Shown one piece after another: positions 60,989-64,000 of a stretch of 64,000 nucleotides of DNA. Source of the DNA: an uncultured Winogradskyella sp. (GTDB lineage Bacteria > Bacteroidota > Bacteroidia > Flavobacteriales > Flavobacteriaceae); contig NZ_CANMJY010000007.1 of assembly GCF_947498345.1 (NCBI RefSeq), positions 62,001 to 126,000 on the forward strand, written 5' to 3'. The notes under the pieces were generated by a model. It saw nothing but the letters and a program-made list of their open reading frames with translations, did no database searches and had not been told where the DNA came from. A program made the translations under genes and the position numbers. Position 1 is the first letter of the stretch. The number at the start of each line of letters is the position of its first letter.

Positions 60989-61384
60989 ATGGCTAACAAA
61001 AACTTCATATCTAAAATTCATTTAGTTATTTCGGTATTGGTCGTAGCACCTGTAGCATTTATTTACGGATTTAACCCAAGCTCTAAGTTTGATATTCACC
61101 CAGAAACCATAGACGAAATCAATCAATTTAAGGCCATAATGGGTTTGTATTTAGGATTTGCTTTAATTTGGGTTTTAGGTGTTTTTAAGAAGAAATATTT
61201 AAAAGTAGCCCTCGTTACCAATACTGTTTTTATGTTGAGTCTAGGAGTGGGAAGAATTACTAGTTGGTTTATAGATGGCACGCCAACTTTTGAATATAGA
61301 TTTGGTGTTTTTGCAGAATTATTTTTAGGGTTTTATGGACTTTGGGTGCTAATAACTCAATATCAAGGCACCACAAATTCCTAA
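60989..61384 (+). CDS. DUF4345 family membrane protein
   Basis: Function unknown. Seen: four hydrophobic segments in 131 residues (IHLVISVLVVAPVAFIYGF, AIMGLYLGFALIWVLGVF, VALVTNTVFMLSLGVGRI, YRFGVFAELFLGFYGLWVLIT) with the DUF4345-like hallmark LGVGRITSWFIDGTP. It overlaps the opposite-strand tiny membrane protein by 36 nt. Confidence 0.82.
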   Translation: MANKNFISKIHLVISVLVVAPVAFIYGFNPSSKFDIHPETIDEINQFKAIMGLYLGFALIWVLGVFKKKYLKVALVTNTVFMLSLGVGRITSWFIDGTPTFEYRFGVFAELFLGFYGLWVLITQYQGTTNS

Positions 61385-61552
61385 ACTTATAATAACATAA
61401 ACGGTTGCAATTACAAACAAAACCTTTGCGGCCTTTCTATGCTTTTTAAGTATAGCGAACCCAATAATGGCTAATAGAATTGCTGGCCCAAACATTACGG
61501 CTAAGATTATAATAAGTAAACCATCTAAATTTCCAACCTCTAAAAGTGTCAT
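61349..61552 (-). CDS. Tiny two-helix membrane protein linked to the radical SAM gene
   Basis: 67 residues: MTLLEVGNLDGLLIIILAVMFGPAILLAIIGFAILKKHRKAAKV and a second helix ending GALILSY — two helices flanking a short basic loop. Not recognised as a named family. Its ATG overlaps the stop of the radical SAM gene by 4 nt (ATGA), a strong sign of cotranslation; the 36-nt antisense overlap with the DUF4345 gene is unusual but does not argue against it. Confidence 0.72.
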   Translation of the reverse strand: MTLLEVGNLDGLLIIILAVMFGPAILLAIIGFAILKKHRKAAKVLFVIATVYVIISLGICGALILSY

Positions 61553-62943
61553 ATAATTTCGTTTCTAAGTTTTTCTAATCTCGATTTTTTTTCATCTCTG
61601 TAAAACAGGTTCATGGTTTCAAAAGGTATAATTTTATTATCCTTATCTATAATGTGTACACACGATTTTTTAATGGCGCGTACATCAAAATTATAAGCAT
61701 CAATAAATTGCATGATAATTACCCTGAACAAATTATCATAACCTAAATCTGGCGCATCGATATTTGGCAAACAACACATAATAGATTTGAGGTTTTCCTC
61801 GGCAACTTCAACAGAATTTCCAGTGCTGAAAAGTTCAATCATTTTGGCGTGTAGCTGTTCATCTTGCTCGTATATAATCGTGTTCTTACTATTGTCTAAT
61901 AAATCATTAGGATTAATAAATCGTGTTAATGGAAAGACCTCGTCATCTAATTTTAAGGCATAACCCATCACTAAAGCATCAGGATTACAAGGTACAGGCA
62001 ACAAATCATCTGAGTTGAAAACAGTAGTCTGTTCCATGATTTTTCTTCGAACTTCAGTTAAAGTCATTCGATCTGTTTCAGGATTAAAGTTATCTAATCG
62101 TCCCGCTACTTGAGTTGGTTGAAGCGTAACACCTCTAACACACTTTTGTTTTAGCGCATAGTCGATAATTTTTCCTATTTCGTTATCGTTTAACCCTTTT
62201 TGAAGCGTAACTACTAAAGTAGTAGATAGATTTAGTTTGTTTAGATTTTCAATAGCTTTTTGGCGAGTTGTATTCAAATCTGCACGTCGTAATTCTTGCA
62301 AAACTGAATTTTCAAACGAATCAAATTGCAAATAAATTTCAAAATCTGGTGTGTAAGATTTCAAGCGTTTAGCAAACTCAAAATCATTGGCAATTTTAAG
62401 ACCATTGGTATTTAACATTAAATGCCTGATAGGTAAAGATTTTGCATAATCTAAAATCTCCCAAAATTGAGGATGAATAGTTGGTTCGCCACCAGAGATT
62501 TGAACCACATCAGGTTCTTTCTCATTTTTAACAATAGTGTCTAGCATTACTTTAACCTCTTCCAGAGTACGATGTCTTCCATAAGTTGGCGATGAACCTG
62601 CGTAGCACGTTGGACAAGTTAAATTGCATCGGTCTGTAACCTCTACGACTGTCAAGCAACTGTGTTGCTCATGGTCTGGACAAAGACCACAATCGTATGG
62701 ACAACCGTAATGCGTTTTGGTATTAAATGTATGTGGCGTTTCACTAGGTTTGTTGTAGTTCCTAATATTCTTATAATACTCAATATCATCTGCAATTAAC
62801 ACCTTAGAATTACCATGTTCATTACAGCGCTTTAGCATATAAACATTTTCATCTTCAAATACAATTTTAGCGTCAACACGTTTTAAGCACTCAGGACAAA
62901 GACTTAAAGTAAAATCGTAGTAAGTATATTTTCTAACCGGCAT
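61549..62943 (-). CDS. Radical SAM protein of the Tes/MJ0619-like family
   Basis: Radical SAM enzyme homologous in layout to archaeal tetraether synthase Tes and the pterin-methylating MJ0619 group. Seen: N-terminal cysteine pair C16/C19 (LCPECLKRV), then C40 in KRCNEHG, a second Cys cluster C81, C85, C88 and C96 (GCPYDCGLCPDHEQHSC) and the radical SAM triad C106-x3-C110-x2-C113 (DRCNLTCPTCYA). VVQISGGEPTIHP follows for SAM binding. The extra cysteines likely ligate auxiliary Fe-S clusters or a rubredoxin-like site. 464 residues. It overlaps the Lgt-like gene by 11 nt, so the substrate may be lipid or glycerol-linked. Confidence 0.88.
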   Translation of the reverse strand: MPVRKYTYYDFTLSLCPECLKRVDAKIVFEDENVYMLKRCNEHGNSKVLIADDIEYYKNIRNYNKPSETPHTFNTKTHYGCPYDCGLCPDHEQHSCLTVVEVTDRCNLTCPTCYAGSSPTYGRHRTLEEVKVMLDTIVKNEKEPDVVQISGGEPTIHPQFWEILDYAKSLPIRHLMLNTNGLKIANDFEFAKRLKSYTPDFEIYLQFDSFENSVLQELRRADLNTTRQKAIENLNKLNLSTTLVVTLQKGLNDNEIGKIIDYALKQKCVRGVTLQPTQVAGRLDNFNPETDRMTLTEVRRKIMEQTTVFNSDDLLPVPCNPDALVMGYALKLDDEVFPLTRFINPNDLLDNSKNTIIYEQDEQLHAKMIELFSTGNSVEVAEENLKSIMCCLPNIDAPDLGYDNLFRVIIMQFIDAYNFDVRAIKKSCVHIIDKDNKIIPFETMNLFYRDEKKSRLEKLRNEII

Positions 62944-63676
62944 TTATTGTTTTTTGAAGTATAAATTTTGAATAATACAACCAACAAATTACACATAATA
63001 ATTGTATAGTGCTTAAACCTAATATATAAAACACGTTAGGTTTTAAATATTCAATGAAAAACCGAAACACAAAATATAGTAGCATAAATAGCTTGAAGAG
63101 TTCACCGTTTTTTAATGTTAATTTATTTTGAATACTTTTTAGCCCTAAAAATAGCATAAACAGAAATATCAATTCGTAAAGCGAGGTTGGATGTCTAAGT
63201 AACCCATCGCCTAAATCCATTCCTAAGAATGTAGTCGTAACCTTTCCATAGGTAAATTCTTTAACACCCGAAAGAAAACAGCCAACACGACCAATAAAAA
63301 TTCCAAGTATTATTGGAAACACAAACAAATCGCCTGAAGATTGTTTTTCACCAATGATTTTTTTAGCTAATTCTACACCGAGTAACCCGCCAAATAAACC
63401 ACCCATTATAGTTTTAGTATTTAATAGCTGAATTAAATTTTGTTGAGAAAACACTACTATCGGATTTTCTAAAAGCCCAACTAACCGCGAGCCAATCAAA
63501 GCACCCAAAGCTGCTCCAAGAATAATGGATAAACGATTGCCAGAGCTTATAATATCGGTGCTTTTTCGCCTTAGAACGACATAGTATCTAAAGGCAATGA
63601 AAAATGCCATGTATTCTAAAACCAAATGAATGTTTATGGTGTAACCAAAAATTATAGGTTCAAACGGAATATTCAA
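62933..63676 (-). CDS. Divergent Lgt-like (prolipoprotein diacylglyceryl transferase family) membrane protein
   Basis: Polytopic membrane protein similar to phosphatidylglycerol-prolipoprotein diacylglyceryl transferase but altered. Seen: GGLFGGLLG after IM (Met91 at the position where Lgt has His before GGLIG), GRVGCFLSG with Arg130 kept and Cys133 where Lgt has Asn, HPTSLYELIF, and RFFIEYLKP with Arg205-Glu209 kept. The residues changed (E. coli Lgt His103 and Asn146 by my alignment) are important for Lgt activity, so this is unlikely to be the housekeeping enzyme. 247 residues, about seven hydrophobic segments. Translationally coupled (11-nt overlap) to a Tes-like radical SAM gene. Confidence 0.82.
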   Translation of the reverse strand: MNIPFEPIIFGYTINIHLVLEYMAFFIAFRYYVVLRRKSTDIISSGNRLSIILGAALGALIGSRLVGLLENPIVVFSQQNLIQLLNTKTIMGGLFGGLLGVELAKKIIGEKQSSGDLFVFPIILGIFIGRVGCFLSGVKEFTYGKVTTTFLGMDLGDGLLRHPTSLYELIFLFMLFLGLKSIQNKLTLKNGELFKLFMLLYFVFRFFIEYLKPNVFYILGLSTIQLLCVICWLYYSKFILQKTINAG

Positions 63677-63715: not shown

Positions 63716-64000
63716 TTAAAATAAAGCTGTAACAATTTCATCAATTCCTGAAGCATATGCTTTAATAAGATCTTGTTTTTTTGCTATAGCTGTTTGCTCA
63801 TCATGGCTGTTAGTTCCAAAAAAAGGCTCAGTAATAATGCAAGGAGCAGCTGTATATTTTAACAAGTGTCCTCCGCGTTCAGTGACTTTAACTTTTTTAG
63901 TGAAGCGATTTCTTAAACCCAACGCTTCTAAAACATGTCTTTGCATTATTAAAGCCATCTTATACCCTTTTTTTGAGCTGTGATAATACAACATCTCCGT
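63716..64000 (-). CDS. N-acetylmuramoyl-L-alanine amidase-like, 5' end outside the window
   Basis: C-terminal end of an Amidase_3-type cell-wall hydrolase; the frame stays open to the right edge, so the N-terminus lies beyond 64000. Seen: LEALGLRNRFTKKVKVTERGGHLLKYTAAPCIITEPFFGTNSHDE, in which GGxLLxxTxxPxIxxEPFFxxN is the recognisable amidase-type C-terminal segment and the Glu is a likely catalytic residue. About 95 residues visible. It precedes the Lgt-like gene by 39 nt on the same strand. Confidence 0.7.
   Translation of the reverse strand, partial: TEMLYYHSSKKGYKMALIMQRHVLEALGLRNRFTKKVKVTERGGHLLKYTAAPCIITEPFFGTNSHDEQTAIAKKQDLIKAYASGIDEIVTALF

Follow-up and report, generated by a model that had tools for sequence, protein, structure and literature searches.

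The DNA considered here is a stretch of 64,000 nucleotides (nt) from an uncultured Winogradskyella sp. (contig NZ_CANMJY010000007.1, positions 62,001 to 126,000), referred to below as the window. Near its end, three genes overlap on the minus strand: a paralog of the Cys-lipidating enzyme Lgt (62933-63676; 247 amino acids, TTG start), a radical S-adenosylmethionine (SAM) enzyme of the Tes/TrsS/HMPTM superfamily (61549-62943; 464 amino acids), and a mini membrane protein of 67 amino acids and about 7 kDa with two hydrophobic stretches (61349-61552), which is the proposed lipid acceptor. The paralog and the radical SAM gene share 11 nt (62933-62943), and the radical SAM and mini genes 4 nt (61549-61552). 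An earlier, sequence-only reading of this DNA had described the three overlapping genes, the lengths of both overlaps, and a 67-residue protein of two helices, and the coordinates bear out the genes and overlaps. Many Bacteroidota carry this tight three-gene unit, which looks like an undescribed route of protein lipidation.

The Lgt paralog combines a familiar fold with changed key positions. It matches the Lgt family PF01790 with 89 bits (cut-off 24.9), scores 44.8 bits with the Lgt equivalog model TIGR00544, below the cut-off of 118.9, and its AlphaFold2 (AF2) model, with a predicted local distance difference test score (pLDDT) of 89.1, superposes on E. coli Lgt (5azb) with a Z-score of 14.0 and a root-mean-square deviation (rmsd) of 5.0 over 239 aligned residues, the next-best chain reaching a Z-score of 7.5. 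Residues were mapped by alignment with the Lgt of E. coli K-12 and with the other Lgt encoded in the genome. In the E. coli enzyme, His103, Asn146, Arg143, Tyr235, Arg239, and Glu243 are described as important or essential in portions of PMC8689077 and PMC4728403. In the paralog, Arg143, Glu202, Tyr235, Arg239, and Glu243 are kept as Arg130, Glu168, Tyr201, Arg205, and Glu209, whereas His103 is replaced by Met91 (codon at 63404-63406, minus strand) and Asn146 by Cys133 (codon at 63278-63280, minus strand). The sequence-only reading had named Met91 and Cys133 as the substitutes for the Lgt His and Asn, with Arg130, Arg205, and Glu209 retained, and the alignment with E. coli Lgt agrees.

These changes are a property of the whole group. 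In an alignment of 72 paralogs, with rows picked for diversity and the full distant copies (L133, L134) included, the His103 site, part of the HGGL motif in Lgt, is never His (M in 52, V in 14, I and A in 2 each, L and T in 1 each), and the Asn146 site is Cys in all 72, as well as in all 114 members of a wider alignment. Arg143, Glu202, Tyr235, and Arg239 are found in 72 of 72, and Glu243 is E in 65 and D in 7. Further positions depart from Lgt in nearly every member: the Asn149 site is S, A, T, or M in 69 of the 72, the Glu151 site is I, T, V, or L in 70, and the sites of Tyr26 and Tyr30 hold His and Glu, respectively, also in 70. The 114-row alignment leaves out matches below 160 bits or of 230 amino acids or fewer, among others the broken copies in L061, L074, and L028 and a part copy in L052. 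In L061, L074, and L028 the paralog is split into two open reading frames (ORFs), which reflects assembly errors or decay.

The paralog also coexists with a better-scoring Lgt. The genome of the window (3.8 Mb) holds a second lgt with 199.2 bits, against 88.5 for the paralog, whose product keeps the canonical His103 and Asn146, the residue-level check having been made for this genome only. A further, better-scoring Lgt match is present in each of the 32 paralog-bearing genomes described below. The canonical lgt whose absence from the rest of the genome would have spoken against the sequence-only reading does exist. The identity of the paralog as the housekeeping Lgt was thus rejected, both for its own genome and for the other 31. 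Judged by these residues, the paralog keeps phosphatidylglycerol (PG)-binding features, but its acceptor chemistry probably differs from that of Lgt.

The radical SAM enzyme carries the HMPTM zinc-ribbon domain PF23545 (69.9 bits) and a CX3CX2C motif (C106-x3-C110-x2-C113, 62605-62628, minus strand). Its best curated matches are the models of the (seleno)protein TrsS (NF045646, 331.2 bits, cut-off 490), which it matches end to end over residues 12-450, and of Tes (NF045702, 291.6 bits, cut-off 450), with the best stretch at residues 12-320; since both curated cut-offs are missed, membership in either family was rejected. The AF2 model (pLDDT 76.1, falling below 50 at residues 67-95, 280-282, 353-361, and 368-401) aligns with the tetraether synthase 7tom over 402 of 464 residues, spanning residues 5-452, with a Z-score of 39.2 and an rmsd of 3.1, followed at a distance by SuiB (Z 18.9), MoaA (18.7), and SkfB (17.5). 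Assignment to the Tes family, as claimed in the sequence-only reading, therefore stands at the level of the superfamily and fails by the curated model.

The same reading had also attributed the extra cysteines of the Tes type to this enzyme, which is true for one part of the protein and not for another. Upstream of the radical SAM motif lie a rubredoxin-type site, C16-x2-C19-x20-C40-x2-H43 (62815-62898, minus strand), compared here with the ligands given in part of PMC9433317, and an N-terminal auxiliary cluster motif, C81-x3-C85-x2-C88-x2-H91, followed by H94 and C96 (62656-62703, minus strand). C16, C19, C40, C81, C85, C88, and H91 are present in 46 of 46 family rows and H43 in 45, and these ligands, the radical SAM motif, and the general architecture are shared with Tes, the archaeal tetraether lipid synthase also called GDGT-MAS (7tom). 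The C-terminal set differs: C319, C390, C391, and C428 are invariant in the 46 rows, whereas two Tes-like proteins share only C428, and the distant trios L133 and L134, discussed below, C319 and C428. The Trs-like relative L144 has all four, and L143 two. By pairwise alignment, M411 lies at the position of Met439 of GDGT-MAS, with Thr in the distant trios, and Ile431 at that of Tyr459. Variants of Tyr459 or Met439 of GDGT-MAS are still active in vitro, according to the portion of PMC9433317 that deals with them.

Neither Pfam nor NCBIfam gives a match above cut-off for the mini protein. Its relatives beside the radical SAM gene span about 54 to 124 residues and diverge so strongly that the copies in G144 and G172 escaped a profile built from 20 such proteins. 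When 20 chosen minis are aligned, the only invariant residues are G58 and C60. This Cys60 (codon at 61373-61375, minus strand; context ISLGIC-GALILSY) is the nearly fixed element, an observation that goes beyond the sequence-only reading. Of 134 distinct small hydrophobic ORFs near the radical SAM gene, 128 carry a Cys that lies 3-12 residues before the C-terminus (113 of the 121 loci yielding such an ORF by the filter), and in a second set of mini proteins a terminal Cys is found in 136 of 143. The surroundings of this residue are also characteristic. An uncharged run of 15-20 residues precedes it in 130 of those 136, the net charge before the run is positive in 133, and among the 128 proteins Gly occupies position -2 in 100 and position +1 in 100, so that the motif is mostly G-x-C. 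The complete arrangement of positive stretch, helix, and Cys occurs in 130 of 142 adjacent ORFs and in 4 of 101 control ORFs, which were selected by length and hydropathy and are not proven genes.

The mini genes follow the cassette closely. The profile found them in 11 of 13 tested cassette genomes of the family, the two that were missed carrying divergent minis (L015, L018), while 20 cassette-free genomes from that family gave only one partial match of 22.7 bits, and the genome of the window, beyond the cassette, only one match of 19.3 bits. A Cys-less small hydrophobic protein is encoded between the Lgt paralog and the radical SAM gene in an uncultured Flavobacteriaceae (L055:7632-7835), in Algibacter (L056:7603-7806), and in Hyunsoonleella (L068:7633-7833).

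The pairing of the two enzymes is conserved well outside the window. Within the order, 33 of 196 genomes hold a radical SAM ortholog; within the phylum, 34 of 392 genomes have a radical SAM match at E <= 1e-40, 31 of them scoring above 350 bits. The three weaker relatives show 31-35% identity, and two of these match the Tes model best, with 493.8 bits (above the cut-off of 450) and 432.3 bits (just below it). The profile of the Lgt paralog, run against 392 genomes with unchanged settings, matches 32 at E <= 1e-30, which include all 31 genomes with a radical SAM ortholog and one more, G211. The Fisher p-value of 4e-45 ignores shared ancestry and is to be read only as near-perfect co-occurrence. 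Because two genomes, G225 (L044) and G432 (L050), carry the partners on different contigs, this co-occurrence amounts to more than mere adjacency.

The gene order is similarly constant. Of 117 distinct loci (121 minus 4 duplicates), 109 have both enzyme genes on one strand with the Lgt paralog upstream, at a gap of at most 60 nt in 82, of 61-500 nt in 22, and farther in 5; the neighborhood, whose absence from relatives would have spoken against the sequence-only reading, is conserved. Three of the remaining eight loci end too early to judge, and five have no upstream paralog within the locus. Of these five, G525 (L046) has the paralog about 2.3 kb upstream, G225 (L044) and G432 (L050) have it on another contig, L052 has it downstream, and L127 shows none within 8 kb. 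A mini gene with the terminal Cys lies within 520 nt in 110 of the 117 loci, and 22 of the 117 hold at least two mini genes. Among the seven misses, two loci (L041, L116) stop at a contig edge, two others (L028, L046) have the gene outside the filter, and L052 has it in another order. A chance neighborhood was rejected, order and co-occurrence being conserved in 109 of 117 loci and in 31 of 31 genomes, respectively. The unit recurs in many genera and is accessory, since one genome of the same genus as the window is without it. The named loci, the best 80 of 583 radical SAM relatives, all bear names of Bacteroidota; judged by this protein, the genome of the window has its nearest named relatives among the Flavobacteriaceae, Winogradskyella, Algibacter, and Lacinutrix being examples.

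The best reading of the cassette would be a lipid-related modification and, since the mini protein looks like an acceptor, the lipidation of a protein is favored over that of a free membrane lipid. A fast-changing protein with one fixed Cys, tied to a paralog of an enzyme that lipidates Cys, is most simply the substrate of that paralog. It is tentatively proposed, as a reading of somewhat less than even likelihood, that the mini protein is a dedicated acceptor, that the Lgt paralog lipidates its Cys, and that the radical SAM enzyme makes or modifies the lipid used. The mini protein would reside in the inner membrane, its last helix acting like the signal peptide of a lipoprotein, placed C-terminally rather than N-terminally. 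Its topology, deduced from charge and hydropathy rules, would leave the positive end of the helix in the cytoplasm, following the positive-inside rule, and the Cys at the outer face. The active site of the paralog should face the periplasm, as in Lgt, and there the lipid would be transferred onto this Cys. The radical SAM enzyme, on the other hand, is presumably cytoplasmic and, being Tes-like, could reach the alkyl tails of lipids and not the Cys of the mini protein. Either the paralog would use the radical-modified lipid as donor or the tails would be altered afterwards; a modified donor would explain the need for a dedicated Lgt paralog. Portions of PMC9433317 report, for GDGT-MAS, a sulfur-bearing lipid and an intermediate with a substrate carbon bound to cluster sulfur, so both the coupling and the thiolation of tails are conceivable here.

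Several observations weigh against this proposal. The paralog is without His103 and Asn146, mutants of which are inactive in E. coli (as stated in parts of PMC8689077 and PMC4728403), and this makes the canonical transfer chemistry doubtful. A terminal Cys by itself is not rare in hydrophobic ORFs: Cys is found 3-16 residues from the end in 28 of the 101 controls, as compared to 134 of the 142 adjacent ORFs. The minis also lack a canonical lipobox, since I or V stands at position -1 in 96 of 128 proteins, whereas S, A, T, or G occupies that position in 70 of 79 lipoprotein-like N-termini from the same loci, a comparison set picked by a loose rule and including some false members. Among the features of bacterial lipoproteins, the mini protein has the positive n-region, the uncharged helix, and the Cys, but neither the small residue at -1 nor the usual placement of the Cys, close to the N-terminus and ahead of a soluble domain; the I or V at -1 may serve to keep it away from the housekeeping Lgt and LspA. 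Six of the 134 nearby small ORFs are without a terminal Cys. Three of these (L055, L056, L068) belong to one different gene type, L042 is apparently an overlapping frame, L087 has Phe in place of the Cys and a tandem copy that keeps it, and L081 has sister copies with Cys. No nearby mini gene is seen in L044 and L127. Finally, G211 (L171) has the Lgt paralog with no radical SAM ortholog in the genome, and no evident mini gene beside the paralog.

The same two enzymes could instead produce a free membrane lipid with modified tails, an idea close to the membrane-lipid modification of the sequence-only reading. The radical enzyme would alter the tails, the paralog would act on the diacylglycerol part by moving or trimming it, and the mini protein would assist without itself being a substrate. 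GDGT-MAS itself works on free lipids, as described in part of PMC9433317, the Tes-like architecture extends over residues 5-452 of the radical SAM enzyme, and the paralog retains the Lgt residues that contact PG, a role assigned to them in sections of PMC8689077. This alternative is nonetheless judged unlikely, as it leaves unexplained both the single fixed Cys behind a signal-peptide-like helix in a fast-changing protein and the tandem minis of 22 of the 117 loci. Duplication of that kind, together with the small size and variability of the mini gene and its position next to a radical SAM gene, would suit the precursor of a ribosomal peptide, cross-linked by the radical SAM enzyme and lipidated by the paralog into a lipopeptide signal or toxin. 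Peptide maturases are indeed among the next-best folds of the radical SAM model, SuiB with a Z-score of 18.9 and SkfB with 17.5, and MoaA (18.7) between them. The match to a lipid enzyme is far better, however (39.2 against 18.9), the Cys is predicted to be periplasmic and the radical enzyme presumably cytoplasmic, and no common exporter or peptidase was seen, since outside the flavobacterial synteny block the 80 named loci share no gene of at least 100 amino acids apart from the cassette; all of this makes a peptide precursor improbable.

Another proposal with little probability behind it regards the mini protein as a structural or redox subunit, whose Cys would lie beside Cys133 of the paralog and complete the altered active site through a disulfide, a metal, or thiolate catalysis. 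It would account for a Cys133 conserved in 72 of 72 paralogs in the place of an essential Asn, and both Cys are placed, by prediction, in the outer half of the membrane. A subunit fitted to an active site is difficult to reconcile with minis that vary in length and in the number of hydrophobic stretches while the key positions of the paralog stay fixed, and with the 22 of 117 loci that hold two or more of them.

The most distant members of the group count in favor of the proposal of a lipidated mini protein. The radical SAM enzymes of L133 and L134 reach only 39-40% identity, and score 368.5 and 317.8 bits with the TrsS model (cut-off 490), yet the same trio is present: their gene set comprises the radical SAM gene, an ICMT-like gene, a DUF4395-like gene, the Lgt paralog, and a mini with the terminal Cys. 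The paralogs carry GRFGC or GRVGC, and the minis FGAC or FGSC. The ICMT/PEMT-like and DUF4395-like genes separate the radical SAM gene from the Lgt paralog (L134:4784-5858, L133:9883-10951); the former was identified by Pfam, and the latter is Pfam-confirmed in L134 and judged by eye from its translation in L133. Two trios of such low identity suggest that the pairing of Lgt paralog and radical SAM enzyme is probably older than the flavobacterial group. A more specific, and rather unlikely, version of the proposal can then be considered, in which an enzyme of the Lgt fold, using a Cys-based chemistry, would place a radical-modified lipid, for instance a tail-coupled or tail-thiolated one, on the Cys in the C-terminal region of a dedicated hairpin protein, and the resulting lipoprotein would have its polarity reversed; in L133 and L134, the ICMT-like methyltransferase would add a step resembling the processing of eukaryotic CaaX proteins.

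Sampling beyond the Bacteroidota is slight and consists of two plasmid records from outside the phylum; 9 of 10 plasmid records with a match belong to Actinomycetota or haloarchaea. The two, L143 and L144, are plasmids of Mycolicibacterium vanbaalenii and Salinirubellus, whose Trs-like radical SAM genes stand directly before a methyltransferase gene. Unlike in the cassette, neither has a gene annotated as Lgt nearby (about 6 kb to either side, 13 kb in all).

Each cassette enzyme belongs to a known superfamily, and both miss the cut-offs of the characterized families tested. Among the open-access papers searched, subscription papers and preprints being outside the scope, no title or abstract was found describing a pairing of an Lgt paralog with a radical SAM enzyme. 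A comparable case could be the Skillet-1 Lipocone, where a non-canonical enzyme is likewise genetically linked to a lipobox-like motif, a GS sequence at which lipidation is predicted (parts of PMC12419801). The enzyme family is unrelated, however, the residue is Ser and not Cys, and the term radical SAM appears nowhere in the main text of that article.

Lgt is usually taken to have a single function and an unvarying catalytic His, a view shared by the pertinent portions of PMC8689077 and PMC4728403. If the proposal holds, there would be a conserved branch of Lgt that differs in its active site and has a substrate of its own. Regarding the radical SAM partner, homologs of Tes exist in bacteria not known for biphytanyl chains (according to part of PMC9433317), and bacterial homologs have been tentatively tied to branched glycerol dialkyl glycerol tetraethers (brGDGTs) in a section of PMC8941075. 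The cassette offers a concrete substrate hypothesis for one group of these Tes-like enzymes.

Among genes of at least 100 amino acids in the 80 named loci, no fourth cassette gene was found, only the radical SAM gene (41 labels) and the Lgt paralog (36 labels) being widely spread. Downstream of the cassette in the window, a gene for a DUF4345 membrane protein (60989-61384, plus strand; 89.3 bits) converges on the mini gene and overlaps its 3' end by 36 nt, and a DUF4345 gene lies near the cassette under six genus labels. On the other side, the 3' part of an N-acetylmuramoyl-L-alanine amidase gene (63716-64000, minus strand; Amidase_3, 28.2 bits) runs in an open frame to the edge of the window. 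lepA and other neighbors are recurrent in flavobacteria, and lepA is found as well in one metagenome-assembled genome of the Bacteroidales.

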